Source: a virus
Reading direction: 5' to 3' (one strand)
Length of the DNA stretch: 40,250 nucleotides
Virus record (IMG/VR): IMGVR_UViG_3300008952_000115
Span: 1 to 40,250 of that record
Shown one piece after another: positions 1,730 through 16,394 of the stretch. Both the position numbers and the translations under genes were made by a program. The notes under the pieces were generated by a model, which was given only the letters and a program-made list of their open reading frames with translations, had not been told where the DNA came from and made no database searches. Each line of letters opens with the position of its first letter. Position 1 is the first letter of the stretch.

Positions 1730-1950
1730 TGAAAGAGCACATTGATTATTCGGATGATGAGCGTTGGCGAGAGCTCCAAAAACGATACTCAAGAGCACAA
1801 GATGTTCTTGGTGTTAAAGAGGTCTTGGACGTGAAGAGGACATTGGTTGGCAATGCCCGTTTGACAGAGGTCTCGCCACAAAAATTAAGAGAAATCATAG
1901 GCAAGCTTATAGCCACATACAAAAGAAAGAAGAGAAATGGCAAGATATAA
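1729..1950 (+). CDS. small basic hypothetical protein
   Basis: 73 residues, predominantly helical, ending in a very basic tail (YKRKKRNGKI) that could contact nucleic acid. No family recognised. The start overlaps the previous stop (TGATG), and the last 14 bases overlap the start of the replication initiator gene, so its translation is probably tied to both neighbours. Confidence 0.65.
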   Translation: MKEHIDYSDDERWRELQKRYSRAQDVLGVKEVLDVKRTLVGNARLTEVSPQKLREIIGKLIATYKRKKRNGKI

Positions 1951-2863
1951 TGAAGTTAGCCAGAGAGTTTGGATTAGCTCCGACTTCAAAAAGCTATCCT
2001 CAGACGGCAAACTGCTTTGGCTGTTTTTCCTCACCGGCCCGATGAAAACACCACTGCCCGGAATATATCATATGGGAGTTGGGTCGTGCCTTGACCACAT
2101 ACGCTGGGATAGGGTGAGATTCCTTAAGTCTTTTGAGGAGCTACAGGAGAATGGCATGGTTGAAGCCGACTGGGACAATAATGTGATACTGCTTCCAAAG
2201 TGGGCTCGGTATAACAGACCCCCGGCAAACGATAAGGTGCTAAAGGGATGGCTGAACATACTCGACAATATCCCGGACTGCAATCTCAAGATGAGGTTCA
2301 TTGAATCTCTCGGTGAAATGTGCGAGAGATATACAGAGGATAAGGGTTCGGGCAACTGGTTTGAGTCTGGGATGGCGGAATGGGAAGACAAAATCTCTTC
2401 TTATGATGATGCTAAGCCCAAGAGACTGGTTGCTGATACCAAGAAAAAAGAGAAGCCAAAACCAAAAGAGGATAGCAAGCTTGTTGGCGTTGAGGTTGGT
2501 GAGCAATACTACGAGATGTCGTTAATGTACCACACGGCGGTTAAGTCTAACCTACCGACCCTAAGCCATCTGCTAAACGGACAATTTGAAAAAACGGTAT
2601 TTGAAGGTGCTATCGAGTTGGAAAAGCTTGTACGAATTAATAATTATACAGATGAGCAAATTCAGTCTGCCTTGAAGTGGGCTGTTGACTCGTACGACGA
2701 GGGCGCAAGTTTCAACTGGCTTGAGGTTCTTCAGTCGCTCAAGGGCATACGGAGAAAAAGCAAGAACGGACTGATGAAGTTTGAGAACCTTCTTTCCCGT
2801 GTTAAGCAAGTGAGCAAAAGAAGAGGATTCACCGAAAGCTCGTTTGAGGGAGATGTAGAATGA
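1937..2863 (+). CDS. DnaD-like replication initiator / replisome organiser
   Basis: 308 residues. Residues 1-100 have the hallmark of phage DnaD-like initiators: a short strand, a winged-helix segment (SDFKKLSSDGKLLWLFFLTG), a GIYHMG turn, then LEENGM-like and LLPKWARYNRPP segments. A basic linker follows, and a C-terminal helical region (LEKLVRINNYTDEQIQSAL and a WLEVLQSLKGI segment) recalls the DnaD helper-binding domain. Such proteins bind the phage origin and recruit a host helicase through a loader, and the next gene fits the loader role. No helicase or polymerase lies in the window, consistent with use of the host replisome or with genes located elsewhere. Confidence 0.7.
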   Translation: MARYNEVSQRVWISSDFKKLSSDGKLLWLFFLTGPMKTPLPGIYHMGVGSCLDHIRWDRVRFLKSFEELQENGMVEADWDNNVILLPKWARYNRPPANDKVLKGWLNILDNIPDCNLKMRFIESLGEMCERYTEDKGSGNWFESGMAEWEDKISSYDDAKPKRLVADTKKKEKPKPKEDSKLVGVEVGEQYYEMSLMYHTAVKSNLPTLSHLLNGQFEKTVFEGAIELEKLVRINNYTDEQIQSALKWAVDSYDEGASFNWLEVLQSLKGIRRKSKNGLMKFENLLSRVKQVSKRRGFTESSFEGDVE

Positions 2864-3447
2864 TTAACCAAGAGCGGCTTAAGGTTGTGAGGGACAAGTG
2901 GGTGAGAGACCTTATGGAGACTTTCGAGATTCCCGCTAACAAAAAACTTGTTGACCTTTGGACAAAGACGCTCGCCCAGTACGATGAAGATGTCCTTCAC
3001 AGGGGCTGGAGCGAATTTGTTAGCATCCTGTATCCCGGAAGACTCCCGGAGCTGAAGAGAGCAATGGGAATCTTCCACAAGCATCAGGGAATAGCTAACG
3101 AAGAAAAGAATCTTTTAAGGAAGAAAAGGGAGAAGGAGGAAATCGAAAAGGTTCTTGGGGACTCGCACACAACCGATACACGCCAGTTTGTTGCTATGTG
3201 TTTGCTTGGGATGAAGAAAATAAAAGCCGGAGAATGGACGAAAAGGGAATACTTCCTGAAGGTTGCTGAGTTTTTTGATGGGTTTGGAATGAAAAGAGAT
3301 GCTAAAGAAATGAGGGACAGGGCAGAAGCTCTCAAAGACACCGAGACCAAAGAAAAGCCAAAGAAAATATCGGCGGTTCAGGAAAAATATGAGCACAGAA
3401 TGAAAATGAACAGAATAATAACAGCACTCGAAAGGAGGTTCTCGTGA
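2860..3447 (+). CDS. probable helicase loader / replication accessory protein
   Basis: 195 residues, highly charged and helical. The N-terminal 70 residues (WVRDLMETFEI, then KLVDLWTKTLAQYDEDVLHRGWSEF and RLPELKRAMG, with intervening residues) resemble small phage helicase loaders or inhibitors of the G39P type, with aromatic residues on a helix bundle. The remainder is a long basic coiled region. It overlaps the DnaD-like gene as ATGA and follows it directly, the usual order of initiator then loader. The assignment is mainly from context and helix pattern. Confidence 0.5.
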   Translation: MINQERLKVVRDKWVRDLMETFEIPANKKLVDLWTKTLAQYDEDVLHRGWSEFVSILYPGRLPELKRAMGIFHKHQGIANEEKNLLRKKREKEEIEKVLGDSHTTDTRQFVAMCLLGMKKIKAGEWTKREYFLKVAEFFDGFGMKRDAKEMRDRAEALKDTETKEKPKKISAVQEKYEHRMKMNRIITALERRFS

Positions 3448-7855: not shown

Positions 7856-7972
7856 TTACCTCCGTGTTATGTTATCTATTATCAATGTTTTGATGAAGTA
7901 GGCGAGAAGAACTCCGAAAGCAATCCCGAAAATTCCACTCCAAACAAGAAGCTCTGCCGTGCTAACAATCAT
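7856..7972 (-). CDS. 38-residue single-pass membrane peptide
   Basis: A short open frame: M-IVSTAELLVWSGIFGIAFG-VLLAYFIK-TLIIDNITRR. It has one hydrophobic helix of about 20 residues and a basic C-terminus, so an inner-membrane peptide with N-out topology is likely. Its ATG overlaps the stop of the VWA-like gene as ATGA, the same coupling used throughout this operon, and it fills what would otherwise be a gap. The small size and membrane helix suggest a lysis-, anchor- or effector-type peptide, but no role can be proven. Confidence 0.65.
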   Translation of the reverse strand: MIVSTAELLVWSGIFGIAFGVLLAYFIKTLIIDNITRR

Positions 7973-8835
7973 GCTAAATCCCTCAGAATGTCAATCACGA
8001 GAGATTGCAGTTTGTCTTCGCCCCACCGATTGCCGATTACATAATCAACTCCGACAAACTCTCTCATATCGGTTGAGGTCTGACGAGCTACCCCGAGACC
8101 CGACATTGTAGTAGAATCAAACGAATTGTGCCATACTGAGAACACATAATCCCGAAATACACCGAGGTTAGCCATTGCCTGAACTCGGCGAATGTCGAGT
8201 GGTTCGGTCTCGTTTTTTAGCTCCCAAGCAACCGAGCTTTCTGAGTATTTTTGATGACACCCAGTGCTCGTCGCCATTGCAACGATTCTTGTGCCGAATC
8301 CACGAGTAGTTAGCATGTCGGCAATCAGAGTAGCATGCGCAATGAGATTTACCCAATCATCTTGCTTATTGCCACAACTCATGGCAACCTCAATCCCAAG
8401 CGTCACAACTCTGTTTTGTGCACCACGCTGAGGAGCGCTCCAGTGCTCAGCATCGCCAGTCATAAGCCTCGTCATGCTAAGCTCGTCGCCAGTGTCGGAA
8501 TGTCTGCGCTTGCGCTTGTTTGTTACGCCTCTGCCCGAGAAGAACTCTGGATTTTCAGCCTCGAACTTAGTGCGAATTTCTTCGGTCTTTTTCACGAGAG
8601 ACTTTTTCACATGTCCCCTCCGAATCCTCTCACGTGTTTTTTCTCGGCTATCCTCATGCGTTCCATATCTCCATTTAATTTCACGACTAAGCTCCGTCGG
8701 ACAATTATCTTCTGATGGGTAAAGGTCTGAAGACTCAACGTGTTCAATGAGATGCTTAGTATTCCTTAGCTCGAGTTTAGCAATTTGCCTTTTCGGAGAT
8801 TTTAGCTTTTTGATGGTTAGCTTAGCGTCAGTCAT
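7969..8835 (-). CDS. VWA-like (DUF7192-like) partner of the AAA+ ATPase
   Basis: 288 residues. The N-terminal third is basic and probably disordered or helical. Residues from about 120 on show the alternating pattern of a degenerate von Willebrand A-like domain: VVTLGIEVAMSCGN, then a helix (LIAHATLIADMLTTRGFG), a TRIVAMAT strand, WELKNETEPLDIRRVQAMA, and FRDYVFSVWHNS. This order is what I know from phage DUF7192-type proteins encoded next to CobS-like ATPases. The usual MIDAS DxSxS is not obvious, so metal binding is uncertain. The pair resembles MoxR/CobS-VWA chaperone systems that remodel a target protein. Start overlaps the ATPase stop as ATGA. Confidence 0.7.
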   Translation of the reverse strand: MTDAKLTIKKLKSPKRQIAKLELRNTKHLIEHVESSDLYPSEDNCPTELSREIKWRYGTHEDSREKTRERIRRGHVKKSLVKKTEEIRTKFEAENPEFFSGRGVTNKRKRRHSDTGDELSMTRLMTGDAEHWSAPQRGAQNRVVTLGIEVAMSCGNKQDDWVNLIAHATLIADMLTTRGFGTRIVAMATSTGCHQKYSESSVAWELKNETEPLDIRRVQAMANLGVFRDYVFSVWHNSFDSTTMSGLGVARQTSTDMREFVGVDYVIGNRWGEDKLQSLVIDILRDLA

Positions 8836-10088
8836 TTCGCACCTACAATCACGTGCTCTATTCTGTCATGTGTTTCCTCGTCCCAGTGCTCTACAAGGTC
8901 GAGTAGCACTTGTTTGGCAGTGTCGCCGTCAGCAACTGCTTTAGCACCCTCTACAAAAGCTCGAGTAGACACAACTCGTCGAATGTCTTGCTTATTAATC
9001 TCTTTTCTGAGATTGGTTAAGCCGACGTGCAACTGCCTTAGCTCTGACTTAGTAGATTCTTTACTTTTGTCATGCTCTTCGGTGACGTGCTTTTTGATGC
9101 GCTTATTAATACCGCATAGCTTAGCCTCCAGTATAGCGTTGTAGTCTACGTCTACCATGCTGAGACAGAATCTGTCGAGCGTCGCACTATCGAGCTGATT
9201 GCGTCCAGTGTACTCCCAACTTCCGTTTCCTGTGCCAGTGGTATTGGCGCAAGCCACGAAGTAGAAGTCTGGATGTCGGTCAGCATATGGTTCTCCGTTA
9301 GCACCGCCTCGGTTCGGAACTGATACTCGTCCGTTTGCGAGAGCGGAATTGAGAGCAACGAGCATGTTTGAGTCACAAGCATCGAACTCGTCGGCGAGAA
9401 ATACACCGCCATTTTCGTAAAGCTCTATAAATTCCGCCGAGAAGTACGTGCCGTCGAATAGCATCCGTCCGAGCACGTGACCTTCGCTCATTCCTGCGGA
9501 GCAAGATATGTGTGCAAAGCGTAGGTCGAGAGCCTCAGCTACTTGGGATGCTAACGTAGTTTTGCCAGTGCCAGCGGGCCCGACTAAATACACGTTTTTG
9601 TGACGTATTGTTTTCTTCACAATGCGCTCGAATTTGGGATGTAAGATTCCCTCGAGCTTTTTAGCATCCTTGCCGTCTACTTTGATTTCGATTTCAGCAA
9701 CTCCACCGCCAGTCTCGTCGAGCTCTTTAATCTTCGAGCTATGTCCGTCGAGCAAGCACTTGGTTATGTCGTCAGTAGCACTCAATCTGTCGAGTTTGCT
9801 TTGGATGAGCTTACCTGCATCGCCGAGCATCTTCTCGAGAGCCTCGTCTTTAGCCTCAGCCTCAGCCTCAGCCTCAGCCTCAGCCTCGAAGACTTTAGCG
9901 CCCTCTCGTCGAGATTTAGCACCGCCTCCGTCCCTAAGCTCGTCGAGAGACTGATACACTCCGCTATCGAGAATCTTCTCGAGCTCGTCTTTTCGCATGT
10001 TACGAATATCTCCGGAATTTCCCGGAAATGTGTCCATTGCGACTCGTCGTAAGTCGGTAACTTTTCGTTGTTTCCATTTATTACTCAT
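8832..10088 (-). CDS. CobS/MoxR-like AAA+ ATPase
   Basis: 418 residues. Residues 8-42 resemble a small SAP/Rho-N-like helical domain. Residues 68-80 are an (EA)n run encoded by five perfect GCCTCA repeats (plus strand). The ATPase core has Walker A GPAGTGKTT (170-178), Walker B VFLADEFD (229-236), a sensor-1-like VACANTTG segment and a LDSATLDRF arginine-finger segment. All ATPase residues appear intact. CobS/MoxR ATPases act with a VWA partner to unfold or remodel a target, here the adjacent DUF7192-like protein. Phages carry this pair commonly, but its target is generally not known. ATGA overlaps with both neighbours imply fixed stoichiometry. Confidence 0.88.
   Translation of the reverse strand: MSNKWKQRKVTDLRRVAMDTFPGNSGDIRNMRKDELEKILDSGVYQSLDELRDGGGAKSRREGAKVFEAEAEAEAEAEAKDEALEKMLGDAGKLIQSKLDRLSATDDITKCLLDGHSSKIKELDETGGGVAEIEIKVDGKDAKKLEGILHPKFERIVKKTIRHKNVYLVGPAGTGKTTLASQVAEALDLRFAHISCSAGMSEGHVLGRMLFDGTYFSAEFIELYENGGVFLADEFDACDSNMLVALNSALANGRVSVPNRGGANGEPYADRHPDFYFVACANTTGTGNGSWEYTGRNQLDSATLDRFCLSMVDVDYNAILEAKLCGINKRIKKHVTEEHDKSKESTKSELRQLHVGLTNLRKEINKQDIRRVVSTRAFVEGAKAVADGDTAKQVLLDLVEHWDEETHDRIEHVIVGAK
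9853..9888. repeat. hexanucleotide microsatellite (GCCTCA x5, then GCCTCG)
   Basis: Five perfect GCCTCA units and one GCCTCG unit run in tandem within the AAA+ gene and encode an alternating Glu-Ala helix or linker. Since the unit is six bases, slippage would change the linker length by two residues without a frameshift. Confidence 0.9.
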
Positions 10089-10351: not shown

Positions 10352-10474
10352 TTACCTCTTTCTCTTAATGGTTACACGAATCCCAGAAGGAAGCTCGAAG
10401 ACGAGATTTTTCTTGCCTTTTCTGACGAGCTTTCCTTCGTAGGCTTTGCGTATTAGTTTGGATGTGCCAGTCAT
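10352..10474 (-). CDS. 40-residue basic hypothetical protein
   Basis: A short open frame reading MTGTSKLIRKAYEGKLVRKG, then KKNLVFELPSGIRVTIKRKR. It fills the space between two accepted genes and its ATG overlaps the upstream stop as ATGA. The pattern of alternating strands with a turn at PSG and many basic residues suggests a tiny beta-hairpin nucleic acid-binding protein. Codon use resembles its neighbours. Confidence 0.6.
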   Translation of the reverse strand: MTGTSKLIRKAYEGKLVRKGKKNLVFELPSGIRVTIKRKR

Positions 10475-10815
10475 GATAGCACCTCGTCGTATTCACACGA
10501 GATTCCGAGCTCGTCACACGAGCAATCCCACCGACGGGTGAACTTCAGCCCGTCCCGATACTGGACGACCTTACCCGAGGGTAATTGGACGTACCAATCC
10601 CAGTCTGCTTGAAATACTCGGAAACCCAAGCCAAACTGATTTGAGGTTTGGTTCATCCTTAGTTTCGTTGTCGCCGTAAGCCAACCATTGCTATTCAGCT
10701 CTACGTGTGTTCCACTGAACCGAACAACGTCGGTTGCGTGGTAGCGTACGGAAGTCACTCCGTCAGCTTTATTGATTTGTGTGGCGTGACTGCCAACCTT
10801 ACTTGTCTGTGCCAT
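10471..10815 (-). CDS. conserved phage hypothetical protein (first gene of leftward operon)
   Basis: 114 residues from the ATG at 10815, which has GGAG nine bases upstream; a longer frame to 10890 lacks a good ribosome binding site and has a cysteine-rich, unconvincing N-terminus. The core (VRYHATDVVRFSGTHVELNS, GWLTATTKLRMNQTSNQFGL, WYVQLPSGKVV) is a beta-rich motif series that I remember from many phage hypotheticals, where an arginine-, asparagine- and glutamine-bearing loop (KLRMNQTSNQ) is strongly conserved. The role is unknown. It is the first gene read leftward from the divergent hub. Confidence 0.7.
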   Translation of the reverse strand: MAQTSKVGSHATQINKADGVTSVRYHATDVVRFSGTHVELNSNGWLTATTKLRMNQTSNQFGLGFRVFQADWDWYVQLPSGKVVQYRDGLKFTRRWDCSCDELGISCEYDEVLS

Positions 10816-11183
10816 ATTAACTCCATGTGTTAGGCGTGTGCACCTCGTTGTGCATGGTGTAAACTTACGGAATGTAAACCCTGTTATCAATAACTATTAA
10901 CACGTTAATTGACACGTCGCTAAGCATGTTAGCACCCACCACGCTGAGCAGTGCGCATATTAGGTTAAATCTAACAATATCAGCAGTTACGTGCGTTAGT
11001 GGTAGCATGAATCAGCACAAACGAGCGCAAACAGACATGGAGCGACAAATTGAGCGTAACGCATGCAAAACGGCGACTCAACGGAAATTGGGAAACGGAA
11101 ACGGAAACGGAAGGGGGGCGGCGAGAATAAAGACCCCCTCACAGAAAATTTAAGCCATTTTTAGCCCTTTCACGACGAGGACT

Positions 11184-11303
11184 TTACGGTAAGGCTTACG
11201 GTAAGCTTTACGGTAAGGCTTACGGTATCGCTTACGGTAAGGCTTATGGTATTGTATAGGATAAGGTATAGGATAAGGTAAAGGTAAAGGTTAAGGTTAA
11301 GGA
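11184..11303. repeat. array of ten 12-bp tandem repeats (iteron- or operator-like)
   Basis: Exactly ten 12-base units fill 120 bases. Units 1-5 are near-identical (TTACGGTAAGGC), unit 6 is diverged (TTATGGTATTGT), units 7 and 8 are identical (ATAGGATAAGGT) and 9-10 are further decayed (AAAGGTAAAGGT, TAAGGTTAAGGA). Across unit junctions runs CTTACGGTAAG, a perfect 5-bp inverted repeat around one base, so each junction is a small palindromic site. The 12-base spacing is slightly more than one helical turn. Arrays like this serve as replication iterons or cooperative operators. The gradient of decay suggests growth by duplication from one side. Confidence 0.9.
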
Positions 11304-11378
11304 GGCGGGCGAACAAAAAAGTTAAGCTCAACGAAACTTCCGGAGTTTTCAAAAGTTACACCAAGTAAGCAAAAAGAC

Positions 11379-11406
11379 TTGATAATAATAATTATGCGTG
11401 TATAAC
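11379..11406 (+). promoter_or_regulatory. sigma70-like promoter for the rightward packaging operon
   Basis: TTGATA (11379-11384) and TATAAC (11401-11406) are separated by 16 bases in an AT-rich stretch. Each hexamer matches the consensus at five of six positions. Transcription would start near 11413, just before the GTG at 11415. Confidence 0.55.
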
Positions 11407-11414
11407 TTTCAAAC

Positions 11415-12233
11415 GTGCAAGTTAAGTGTCGAAACAGAATTTTCGATGTTTATACGCAATCTGAAGCTGATGACGATGAAATTCCATATACCTCTGACTG
11501 GCGGAACGCTGAAGTAGGAGATTGGATTTTAACAGATGACGAAAAAGTCCTCGAAGTTCTTGGCAGACGACAGCGGAAACACAAGTCATATAAGAAGCCT
11601 GTTGTTTTTATACGAACTGGATATGGCGAGACACCCACATATAAGCAACGCATCCATGCTAAAAAACGGGCTGATTATGAATGGGATTCACGATACAAGA
11701 AAGGTTTAAGGTATAATGTCAAACCTACAGCGCTTCAAACGGCATTTATGGAAAACCTCCTTGGCGGAGGCAAAATGGCGGCAGATGGAATGTGGACAAC
11801 AGAATCCATCATTAACGCATACCAATCAGTTTACGCTGAAAACAACCCCTCTGTCAGCCTCCGGAGAGGGCTGGCGATACTTCGTAAAAAAACGGTAAAA
11901 GAGCATATGAGCAAAATAATGCGACCAGTGTTAGTTGATAAAGGCATAGACGACGACTATGTTGCTGAAAAGCTGAAAAATTTTATTGAAGATTTAGATG
12001 TTCCTGCGGGAACAAGATTTATGGCACTGGGAAAAGCTTCTGACCTACTTGGGCATTCCGAGAAAGAGAAAGAAGAAAGGGCTCAAACAGTGTTTATGCT
12101 TTCCGATGGTGACAAAAAACTATTAGCTCACGTCAGAAAAGAGCTGTCTGACAAAGAAATTGGGAAACTTATGAAAAAGGCGAAGGAATCGGGAATAGAT
12201 GGTGTTGTCGAAGATGAAAATTCCAGCGGCTGA
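11415..12233 (+). CDS. probable terminase small subunit
   Basis: 272 residues. The N-terminal 90 residues are a charged, beta-containing extension. Residues 100-175 form a helix series (QTAFMENLLGGGKM, ADGMWTTESIINAYQSVYAE, SLRRGLAILRK, VKEHMSKIM) like the DNA-binding helix-turn-helix region of phage small terminases, followed by a helical bundle (DLDVPAGTRFMALGKASDLL). The first position of the packaging operon and the large subunit four genes downstream support the role: recognising the phage DNA end and feeding it to the motor. The start is GTG 11415 with no visible ribosome binding site; the mRNA may be nearly leaderless. Confidence 0.65.
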   Translation: MQVKCRNRIFDVYTQSEADDDEIPYTSDWRNAEVGDWILTDDEKVLEVLGRRQRKHKSYKKPVVFIRTGYGETPTYKQRIHAKKRADYEWDSRYKKGLRYNVKPTALQTAFMENLLGGGKMAADGMWTTESIINAYQSVYAENNPSVSLRRGLAILRKKTVKEHMSKIMRPVLVDKGIDDDYVAEKLKNFIEDLDVPAGTRFMALGKASDLLGHSEKEKEERAQTVFMLSDGDKKLLAHVRKELSDKEIGKLMKKAKESGIDGVVEDENSSG

Positions 12234-12535: not shown

Positions 12536-12694
12536 ATGGCGGCTTACGATTGGAAGGTTTATCCAAAGGGCTGGAAATATAAAAGCCTGAAAGACCCGAA
12601 ATATATCGAAGATAGGGACAAACTTATTAAAGAGCATGGAAATGGCTGGTGGATTCTTGCTGACGGAAGGAAAATATCCGGAAAGAGGCATTGA
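12536..12694 (+). CDS. 52-residue hypothetical protein
   Basis: A short frame, MAAYDWKVYPKGWKYKSLKD and so on, ending GWWILADGRKISGKRH. It is rich in Trp, Tyr and Lys and follows the previous stop directly. The end overlaps the TTG start of the large terminase. This tight packing between two genes supports it as real. Family unknown. Confidence 0.55.
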   Translation: MAAYDWKVYPKGWKYKSLKDPKYIEDRDKLIKEHGNGWWILADGRKISGKRH

Positions 12695-14337
12695 GTAAGT
12701 ACAAATACACCCAAAAAGAAAAAGAAGAGCTGATACGGAGAATGTATCTCGATATACCATTCTTTGCCAAATTCATTCTTGGAGACCCCGACAACCCAAT
12801 GCACTACCATATTCGGGCAAAATCTCCAATGTTCCATAAAGAAATCATCAATAAACTGCTAAAAATGAACTCCGGAGATAAGGTTGCAGTTGTCGCTCCT
12901 CGTGGTCATGCTAAAAGCACTCTAATCAACCTTATTTACCCGCTTCATAGGATTCTTTTCGATGAAGAACGGTTTATTCTTCTTATTTCTGAGTCAGAAA
13001 CCCAGTCCAAGTATAATCTCGAAGCAATAGGCAACGAGTTGGAGTTCAATGAAAAACTAAGGTATTTCTTTGGCGATAGGCGGGGCGAAATATGGGGAAA
13101 AGAGGAAAAAGAGGTTATAACAAATTTTGATGAGGACGGAAAACCATCCGGGTTTTGCAAAATGCTTGTTCGCGGTACTGGTCAAAAGGTTCGTGGTCTG
13201 AAATACGGAGCATATCGTCCAACATTAACCATTATTGACGATGGTGAGGGCGAAAGGAACACTGCAACCGAAAATCTAAGGGACAATTTCCGGAGATGGC
13301 TGAATGGTGCTGTTATTCCGGGTAGTAATGATGCAAAACTTGTCTTTATCGGCACGATTGTAGATGGGGAATCGTACCTCAACAGGGTTGCTGGAGAAAA
13401 AGCGTACTTCAAGGACGGAACTAAGAGGATTAAGGGCTGGGACAGCATGTTTTACCAGTCAATACTTCAGGGGACAGAGATTGGAGAGTTTGTGTCGAGC
13501 GGAAAAGAGATTTTAGGCAAAGATGGAAACCCCAAGGTTCTCTGGCCCGAGTACAGAACCTACAAGTGGCTTAAAGAAGAGCGTGACAGGCTAAAAAGCG
13601 AGGGGGATGTTGCCTATTTTTACCAAGAATACCAGAATATTCCGATGGATGACTCATTTAGGGTCTTCAAAAAAGAGCATATTCAGTATTGGGAAGGATA
13701 TTATAAACGTGAGAAAAATCAGAACTATATTATCAAAACAAAAGACGGCGCTCGTGAAAAAGTTCCGGTTAATATATTTCTCGGTGTTGACCCGGCTTCT
13801 TCTGAAAATATTAAGGCGGACTACACGGTTATAATGGTTATAGCCGTTGATGCCCTAAATAATATTTACGTTCTTGATTACTTCCGAGGGCAGGTAACCC
13901 CAATGGATGGTGCTGATAAATTATTTGAAATTGCGGAACAATATGCCCCCAAAGATATTAAGATTGAAGAAACTGGTCACGTTATGCTCGCAGACTATGT
14001 AATGCGCAAGTCGAAAGAGCTTGGCAAGTTTTGGAATATCAACCCGAAGAAAGCGATTAAAACCAAGTATTATAGAATTAAACAGATGCAACCCTACTTT
14101 GCATCCAAGGCTGTTTTTATAAAAGAACAGCATGATGAGCTTGAGTCCGAATTGTTGAATTTCAAAGAGCACGGTGTCTTCAAAAAAGATACCCTTGATG
14201 CTCTAAGATGGGCTATAGATGACATGTATGCGCCCAACATGGAGCAGAACGACGATGGAGACTGGATTGACATAGAACCAAACGCTATCGGAGCGGACTG
14301 GGAGACTGGTCAAATTTTATATTGGGGAGAAAGTTAA
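12691..14337 (+). CDS. terL: terminase large subunit
   Basis: 548 residues, the packaging motor. The ATPase domain has Walker A APRGHAKST (69-77), Walker B LTIIDDGEGE (about 179-188) and motif III KLVFIGT (about 216-222). The nuclease domain begins at FLGVDPASS with Asp367 and ends with DALRWAIDDM near residue 500. All catalytic residues appear present, and the length is usual for podovirus TerL. It couples ATP use to DNA translocation into the head and cuts the concatemer. It starts at TTG 12691, overlapping the previous stop; a later ATG would remove the early helix. It is followed by the A-rich gap carrying the 23-bp motif. Confidence 0.95.
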   Translation: MSKYKYTQKEKEELIRRMYLDIPFFAKFILGDPDNPMHYHIRAKSPMFHKEIINKLLKMNSGDKVAVVAPRGHAKSTLINLIYPLHRILFDEERFILLISESETQSKYNLEAIGNELEFNEKLRYFFGDRRGEIWGKEEKEVITNFDEDGKPSGFCKMLVRGTGQKVRGLKYGAYRPTLTIIDDGEGERNTATENLRDNFRRWLNGAVIPGSNDAKLVFIGTIVDGESYLNRVAGEKAYFKDGTKRIKGWDSMFYQSILQGTEIGEFVSSGKEILGKDGNPKVLWPEYRTYKWLKEERDRLKSEGDVAYFYQEYQNIPMDDSFRVFKKEHIQYWEGYYKREKNQNYIIKTKDGAREKVPVNIFLGVDPASSENIKADYTVIMVIAVDALNNIYVLDYFRGQVTPMDGADKLFEIAEQYAPKDIKIEETGHVMLADYVMRKSKELGKFWNINPKKAIKTKYYRIKQMQPYFASKAVFIKEQHDELESELLNFKEHGVFKKDTLDALRWAIDDMYAPNMEQNDDGDWIDIEPNAIGADWETGQILYWGES

Positions 14338-14387: not shown

Positions 14388-16394
14388 ATGATAAGAATTA
14401 AAGACCTTGAAGTTCCGGAGATGACCGCAGAAGAGGTGCGGTCTGAATATATCCTATACCAATCATCGGCGGAAACATTCAGATACCAACAAGCAGAAGA
14501 CGAGGAGTTTTATCTCGGTAAACAGCTTACAACTGCGCAAAAAGATTTTTTGATTTCCATAGGACAGCCGCCGGAGGCAAACAATAAAATTCGCCCGGCA
14601 GTTGAACAGGTTTTGTCCAATATTGCGTCAGCAACGCCAGAATGGGATGTAAGCCCGGTGGGGAAAACGGACAATGATGTGTCCGTTGCCTTTAATGCGC
14701 TGTTGGACAAGGTTTGGTATGAGTCAAGGGGCGATTCCCAGTTTAGAGCGGCGTGTAAAGATTTTATTATTAAAGGTCAAGCTTTTCTCTATGTGTACCC
14801 CGATTGGGCGGCTGATGACGGGTTGGGCGCTATACGGGTGAAACGACTACCTCCAGAATCAATCTATTGCGACCCTAACAGTACCCAGCCCGACCTTTCT
14901 GATGCCTCAAGCATCATAGTGAGCGACCTGTTCACCAAGAAGCACCTAAAAATCGCTTTTCCTCAGCATGCGGATATTGTGGATGAAGCCCAAGAAGACT
15001 ACTATAAAAACGAAATCGCAACAGACAAATATTCTCGGGATGATGTTTTGAGGAGAGCGGATGAGCCCCAAGACCACCAGCCGAAGGTTAGGAAGTTTGT
15101 GCGATTTTCAAAGGTTAGCGTGCCGAAGGTTCAAATAATTGAGACCGTAACCGGAAATAATAAAATTCTCGACAAGAAAGAGTATAAAGAGTTTACAAAA
15201 GACCCCAATTACAAAGTTCTCGTTAAAGAGGGAATGATTGAGGAGAAAATCATCTACGAAACCCGTGTCCATGAAATGTGCATCATAGGGGATAAGGTAG
15301 CATACTCTGAAGTATTGCCGATTGTTGAATATCCGATTGCGGTAGCTCTCAACGAGCATGCAGGAACTCCGTTCTCTTCTGGAGATGTTAGGCACGCCAA
15401 AACACCCCAGAGAATGCTAAATAGGACAGAAGCTCTTTTGATTTCCCATACATCTTCCACCGCAAACTTCAAGCTTGTTGTAGAAGATGGTGCGATAGAC
15501 CCCAATGAGCTTGCGAAGTGGGCAATCCCCAATGCTATTGTGAGAGCAAATCCCGGGGCGTTAAGAGAGAATAAGATAAAAGAATTTGTCCCCCCGGCTG
15601 TGAGCTCTCAGCTCTACAACGAGAAGGGGAGATATGAGACCGACATTGAGACGATTTTTGGTGCTTATAAATTTCAGCAGGGAAATCCGTCGGGTGCTCC
15701 GGGAACGGTTGGAGAAGCTCAAATTATTGACGAAGCCTCATCCCGAAAACAGAATTGGAAGATTTTGCCGATTTACGACATGCTTACCCATGCCGGAAAG
15801 TCGGCTGTAGAATGGATACCATATGTGTACGACCAGCAACGGTCATTGCGAATTGTATCTCCAACCGGCGAAGAGTCAGAATTGATGCTGAACATTCCTG
15901 TTGTTGATGATAAGTCCGGCATGGTCAAAAGAATGTATGATATGGTATCAAGCAAAGTTGACATTCGTGTTGTAATAGGCTCTACAAGAGCTAAGACACC
16001 GATGGCAAAACTTCAGAAAGATATTTCACTGCTCAACGCCGGTATTTATGACCGGACAGAGGTGATAATGAACCTTGAAGGAAACATAGATAAGACATCA
16101 CTCCTTCAGAGGATGAGCGAAATTCAGAACCTCCGTTCACAGGTTGAGCAACTCACGGAACAGCTCAAGTCCATGCAGGGCGATATTCAAACCCGTGAAA
16201 GAGAATTGTTCCACGCAAATATGCGTGCGGAACTTGCAAATGCTACAAAGCCGGTGGCGCAAGCCGTCAGCAATGTCAAAGCAACTTCCAAACTGGAACA
16301 AGAAAGGCAGAGAGACAAAACCCGCAAACTTGCGGATGATGTCGGCTCTGCAATTAGTGCGATTAACTCAGATAAAGGAGCTCCGAGTGCATAG
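14388..16394 (+). CDS. portal protein
   Basis: 668 residues. The N-terminal region (YILYQSSAETFRYQQAEDEE, then a DFLISIGQPPEANNKIRPAV segment) and NIASATPEWDVSPVG plus FIIKGQAFLYVYPDW match the P22-type podovirus portal pattern. The middle (VALNEHAGTPFSSGDVRHAK) forms the wing and stem, and the C-terminal 100 residues are a long coiled coil (LRSQVEQLTEQLKSMQ) ending in a basic tail, as in barrel-bearing portals. It forms the dodecameric ring through which DNA is packaged. Gene follows TerL with a 50-base gap that carries the 23-bp motif. Start ATG 14388 has a weak GGGAAA upstream. Confidence 0.88.
   Translation: MIRIKDLEVPEMTAEEVRSEYILYQSSAETFRYQQAEDEEFYLGKQLTTAQKDFLISIGQPPEANNKIRPAVEQVLSNIASATPEWDVSPVGKTDNDVSVAFNALLDKVWYESRGDSQFRAACKDFIIKGQAFLYVYPDWAADDGLGAIRVKRLPPESIYCDPNSTQPDLSDASSIIVSDLFTKKHLKIAFPQHADIVDEAQEDYYKNEIATDKYSRDDVLRRADEPQDHQPKVRKFVRFSKVSVPKVQIIETVTGNNKILDKKEYKEFTKDPNYKVLVKEGMIEEKIIYETRVHEMCIIGDKVAYSEVLPIVEYPIAVALNEHAGTPFSSGDVRHAKTPQRMLNRTEALLISHTSSTANFKLVVEDGAIDPNELAKWAIPNAIVRANPGALRENKIKEFVPPAVSSQLYNEKGRYETDIETIFGAYKFQQGNPSGAPGTVGEAQIIDEASSRKQNWKILPIYDMLTHAGKSAVEWIPYVYDQQRSLRIVSPTGEESELMLNIPVVDDKSGMVKRMYDMVSSKVDIRVVIGSTRAKTPMAKLQKDISLLNAGIYDRTEVIMNLEGNIDKTSLLQRMSEIQNLRSQVEQLTEQLKSMQGDIQTRERELFHANMRAELANATKPVAQAVSNVKATSKLEQERQRDKTRKLADDVGSAISAINSDKGAPSA

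Follow-up and report, generated by a model that had tools for sequence, protein, structure and literature searches.

A 12-bp iteron array and 6-bp ladder beside phage packaging genes as a candidate replication origin

We analyzed a 40,250-nt stretch of DNA (the window), an IMG/VR virus record from an uncultured, probably marine, phage. A block of repeats at 11184-11303 sits between divergent genes, as a preliminary description of this DNA had stated, and the gap that holds it is noncoding. The leftward genes beside the block are those for an AAA+ ATPase, a DUF7192 protein and a Kyano_Gp96-like protein, and the rightward genes are packaging genes. The extent of the gap, ~10816-11414, assumes that the minus-strand gene starts at an internal ATG near 10815, a start that we chose. 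The features of the window considered here are the following.

1937-2863, plus strand: initiator candidate, 308 aa, with an N-terminal winged helix (phrog_25711 / DnaD-like phrog_1701), a flexible linker and a helical C-terminal part
10471-10815, minus strand: Kyano_Gp96-like, nearest gene on the left side of the array; the listed ORF starts at a TTG and extends to 10890
11076-11175, no strand assigned: conserved noncoding element CTCAACG..GGGGGG..TTTT, from an alignment of 36 relatives; separate from the array
11184-11255, plus strand: iteron array, six 12-bp units, five with a TACGGTA core and the sixth degenerate
11256-11303, plus strand: 6-bp ladder, eight hexamers [AT][AT]AGG[AT]
11345-11402, no strand assigned: candidate DNA unwinding region, AT-rich, from a nearest-neighbour stability profile
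11415-12233, plus strand: first gene right of the array, small-terminase-like by position only; it precedes TerL and its position is conserved
12691-14337, plus strand: large terminase subunit (TerL; phrog_38, Terminase_6C), the query for relatives

The block consists of exactly ten 12-base units (120 bp), as first described, and these read in order TTACGGTAAGGC, TTACGGTAAGCT, TTACGGTAAGGC, TTACGGTATCGC, TTACGGTAAGGC, TTATGGTATTGT, ATAGGATAAGGT, ATAGGATAAGGT, AAAGGTAAAGGT and TAAGGTTAAGGA. Identity at a lag of 12 was 85 of 108 positions, against 51 in the best of 100,000 shuffles; the block is genuine and far from chance. A graded decay at one end had also been reported; the last four units do differ, but what they mark is a change of element to hexamers and not decay. 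The block is made of two elements, 12-bp iterons (11184-11255), the first five with a near-palindromic core, (T)TACGGTA(A), and then a 6-bp ladder (11256-11303), the plus strand of which is 77% purine with zero C. We propose the ladder as a candidate unwinding or single-strand capture element. Tandem repeats of one short site, the first attribute of an iteron-type origin, are thus present in the block. The cluster of this 12-bp unit occurs once within the 40-kb window, and repeated copies of the exact window units (TTACSGTAAGG) were found in none of the other viral contigs searched. Separately, six perfect AGCCTC repeats at 9852-9887 lie inside the AAA+ gene and encode an EA repeat.

A second attribute of such origins, an easily melted neighbour, is provided by the ladder together with the 50-bp stretch starting at 11345, which was the least stable of the 10.3-11.5 kb region in the nearest-neighbour stability profile and, over the whole window, falls within the 0.6% of lowest stability. 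The noncoding element at 11076-11175 has CTCAACG, a G-run and two T-runs at near-fixed spacing in the 36 aligned relatives, and is a candidate packaging or promoter element. The alignment of relatives yielded no consensus RNA fold for this element, no Rfam family was found at window 10400-11500, and the DNA of the packaging region had no match among cultured phages. The first gene to the right (11415-12233) was present in 16 of 18 long relatives, and its product had no match in Pfam or PHROG. The AAA_5 ATPase and DUF7192 gene pair (window 7969-10088) was adjacent in 16 of 18 long relatives.

That no gene nearby explains the block, another early statement, holds locally, but the gene that would explain it is the initiator candidate at 1937-2863, ~8-9 kb from the array. 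In an AlphaFold2 model of its product, the N-domain (residues ~10-135) was confident, with pLDDT mostly >90 and the element order of a winged helix, and the remainder was poorly predicted. A PDB fold search returned the initiator/Rep entries 4pql, 4pt7, 5kbj and 4pta among its top matches at weak E values of 0.018-0.1, with CodY and MarR winged helices close behind. Two of these entries, 4PT7 and 4PTA, are RepA_N plasmid initiators with DnaD-like N-domains (PMC7145576). A sequence search of the PDB gave nothing useful, and no significant Pfam match was obtained for the protein, PF06970 not being listed at E up to 1. We propose that this protein may bind the iterons. Its gene has no in-gene iterons (window 1800-3000), unlike most homologues outside the family. 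No match to the DnaA family was found in the window or in 19 related records, and in the same set DnaB gave no match above the cut-off and one sub-threshold hit, in G012, the initiator of which is of the HTH_36 type. In long relatives a DUF1376 primosomal/O-like initiator stands in place of the window type, and it was found in 13 of the records examined.

To collect relatives we used TerL searches, which fetched ~100, three of which are contigs from MAGs with the label Candidatus Marinimicrobia; a search with just the first rightward gene returned four distant loci. The CTCAACG..GGGGGG..TTTT element was present upstream of the packaging genes in ~50 of the TerL relatives, the first search pattern having matched only three loci. 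Among 33 non-redundant members, most had an array of 11- or 12-bp units, a ladder of 6-bp steps, or the two together with the array first, and L006, L015, L018, L019, L080, L106 and L107 showed no significant periodicity in the stretch scanned. Comparison of the array among related genomes had been suggested at the outset, with conservation of its unit in mind. The units proved to be lineage-specific (TTATTTAATAAG, AAACGGTTTACC, TAACCGTTAAGG and CATAGCCTTGC are examples, and there are others), but period, position and order, with the array followed by the 6-bp ladder, recur in most relatives despite the differing units. Scrambling of the array in relatives, which had been named at the outset as evidence against the idea, was thus seen only in part. 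The module is inverted in L042, and in L015 it lies on the opposite side of the conserved element.

Three further arrangements were seen among the relatives. In L098, L154, L161, L163, L164 and L172 a second ATAGC array lies in opposite orientation ~860-875 bp left of the first, the two placed as if flanking the gap. A separate 11-bp array (TTATGCACA, TTGCTTACA) lies between the conserved element and the iterons in L009 (4190-4235), L004 (666-711) and L002 (4340-4382). In record G008 an origin-like module (42934-43009) and the packaging genes occupy opposite contig ends, a layout consistent with a circular or permuted map.

We also searched outside the family with four patterns, all chosen after the family arrays were seen; two of them gave the strong associations. 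The first, three 12-bp-spaced AACSGTT units derived from family members L007, L062 and L082, matched 81 viral contigs and gave 73 non-family loci. Of these 73, 37 encoded a homologue of the window DnaD/O-like protein, which in all 37 lay within 500 bp of the array, with 6.3 expected by random placement within the same matched loci, a null that leaves shared ancestry out of account. When a profile of the N-domain was used, an initiator was found in 47 of 79 AACSGTT loci, with the array within the frame or at most 300 bp away in 47 of 47, and in 0 of 29 loci of the ATAGC pattern. The other 32 of the 79 had no initiator match, six of these being family members with short stretches. The homologues outside the family represent 28 distinct genes, and the array is mostly in-gene, in the linker after codon ~120. 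Of 27 non-family initiator genes, 18 have a 6-bp ladder just on the downstream side of the iterons and none has one on the upstream side. The ladder therefore occurs in both coding and noncoding DNA and is not merely a protein repeat; these observations suggest that it is a recurrent part of the origin.

The 11-bp ATAGC pattern matched 22 loci outside the family, of which none encoded the window-type initiator and 12 a DUF1376 initiator. Eleven of the 12 DUF1376 initiators were within 500 bp of the array (2.6 expected under the same null), the 12 loci falling into about five groups of near-identical proteins and so amounting to fewer independent cases. As sequence comparisons, the AACSGTT and ATAGC searches are a double dissociation in which array class pairs with initiator class. 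Three units of the window core itself, TACSGTA, were rare elsewhere (24 loci), with an initiator near in only 3, and the association is strong for the sister core AACSGTT and weak for the window core. The third attribute of an iteron-type origin, a cognate initiator, is accordingly seen by comparison only, and most strongly for the sister core.

The step from AACSGTT to the window core is carried by the record G033 and by a link within a MAG that is by bin only. Thirteen family records, with arrays of 12-mers and of other kinds, were examined for the window-type initiator. The long virus record G033 encodes one, at 50 and 48% identity over two stretches, and has nine AACSGTT units (AACCGTT) at 14870-14972. 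The MAG of L106, whose unit is TTACCGTAAGGG, encodes one with 58% identity over the N-domain on a different contig. Most other 12-mer contigs were too short for initiator type to be assessed. In most of the 13 DUF1376-type genomes the initiator linker holds motifs of iteron-like and ladder-like type that are similar to the intergenic array of that genome. In a k-mer comparison of these 13 genomes plus the window, G012 and G033, run with four values of k, the totals for own pairs exceeded each time every one of 20,000 permutations, which leave relatedness in, with the near-duplicates G002 and G003 both counted. Several genomes, including the window and G008, were not above the best other genome in this comparison, and the initiator genes of the window and G033 had no copy of the array motifs.

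The position of the array between divergent gene sets would also suit a transcriptional operator, at which the initiator or another DNA-binding protein controls the divergent promoters without origin function; initiators often regulate besides replicating. We consider this unlikely. Many phages have this array class within the initiator gene, which is not a divergent-switch layout, a 6-bp ladder such as the one that accompanies the array is no feature of operators, and the module is turned around in L042 and beyond the conserved element in L015. The sole promoter-like match nearby (11412-11385, minus strand) was at chance level. Operator function may nonetheless be an extra role of an origin array.

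Given that the block lies just upstream of the terminase genes and adjoins a separate conserved noncoding element, we also considered a role in packaging, as a pac or cos site to which the small terminase binds. This is very unlikely, since the small-terminase-like gene is 41-57% identical across relatives with completely different array units, and since array class tracks initiator class and, outside the family, arrays are found at initiator genes. The element at 11076-11175 is a better packaging candidate than the array, but it is located well inside most long relatives and not at contig ends. A right-half scan for the element gave 26 contigs; in some, L167 and L170 among them, it lies no more than a few hundred bases from an end, and in most well inside.

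Taken together, these comparisons indicate that the block at 11184-11303 is very probably the core of a phage replication origin recognized by the initiator encoded at 1937-2863. The proposal of the preliminary description that the repeats are iterons for a DnaD-like initiator is supported by the non-family arrays, which adjoin or lie inside homologue genes, and from the occurrence of the other array class with the other initiator type. In such an origin, the winged-helix N-domain of the initiator would bind the TACGGTA core of each 12-bp iteron. Because the sites are about one helical turn apart, the bound proteins would lie on one face of the DNA and could assemble side by side. The assembly might then open the purine-strand ladder (11256-11303), the AT-rich stretch at 11345-11402, or both, and the C-terminal DnaD/O-like part of the initiator might bring in the host replicative helicase. 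We infer recruitment of a host helicase from the PHROG naming and from the lack of detectable DnaA- or DnaB-family genes in nearly all records searched.

The basal unwinding system of bacterial oriC has a short-period single-strand ladder after its double-strand sites (PMC8287927), and the TAG repeats of Thermotoga are an example of a short-period ladder (PMC10316083). The window likewise has sites followed by such a ladder, but its gap has no DnaA boxes, no phage DnaA was found, and the ladder period is 6 bp. An origin driven by host DnaA, with a box array and DnaA-trios, would account for the resemblance of a 6-bp or 3-bp purine ladder to DnaA-trios and for the separate 11-bp array with DnaA-box-like sequence in some relatives (L009, L011). 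We regard it as extremely unlikely: the TTWTNCACA box is absent from the intergenic gap, its sole window match being at 8603, the units vary by lineage and go with phage initiator type, and, in the window class, the 5'->3' direction of the ladder strand leads away from the sites. DnaA-trios are by convention 3'-GAT-5', and the window ladder has the opposite orientation. DnaD TnnT motifs (PMC10201434) were not, by eye, a regular feature of the ladder complement.

Iteron origins of the kind favored here are already known from lambda ori and from RepA_N origins. In lambda, the iterons are inside the O gene and a region with a purine-rich strand follows (PMC5043065). The window has the same order of initiator-specific repeats and then a strand-asymmetric purine-rich region, and the placement within O is shared with the non-family homologues of the window initiator, the iterons of which are in-gene, and not with the window itself. 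The annotated lambda iterons measure 18 bp, at a spacing of 20-24 bp, and are in-gene; the units of the window measure 12 bp, have a one-turn period and occupy an intergenic gap, the initiator gene being 8-9 kb away. At RepA_N origins, of staphylococcal plasmids and of the PLE satellite, whose origin is in a noncoding region (PMC7145576), a DnaD-like winged-helix N-domain binds iterons, and the fold matches of the window protein include such N-domains, weakly. The window initiator differs in having no PF06970 match, and the comparison does not imply that the phage needs a helper phage as PLE does.

What is less usual in the window is the intergenic position beside the packaging genes, the one-turn period and the ladder. 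One tentative reading, which we put forward as a possibility with some doubt, is that an origin module moved out of the initiator gene to a site next to the packaging operon, where many relatives would carry it as an additional copy. A single initiator would then work at two sites, and might link replication with packaging or with transcription. The module in question would comprise one-turn iterons and a 6-bp purine ladder read as a single strand by the winged-helix initiator.

These results supply candidate origins for a family of uncultured phages, three contigs of which are in Candidatus Marinimicrobia MAGs, and indicate that sequence is enough to pair origin repeats with initiator type: 12-mers with an ACSGT core go with the phrog_25711/1701 type and 11-mers with a TAGC core with the DUF1376 type. 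They also point to DUF1376, a domain to which Pfam assigns no function, as the part of a phage initiator that reads the iterons. Homologues of the window initiator are also found in the cultured Citrobacter phage Chris1 and the cultured phages pPE4 and phi12.4, annotated as O, primosomal or hypothetical proteins and adjoining a P, replication or DnaC gene. The ACSGT array is absent from Chris1 and pPE4; by eye, the initiator genes of all three phages contain 12-bp-spaced repeats, with a ladder in pPE4 and phi12.4.
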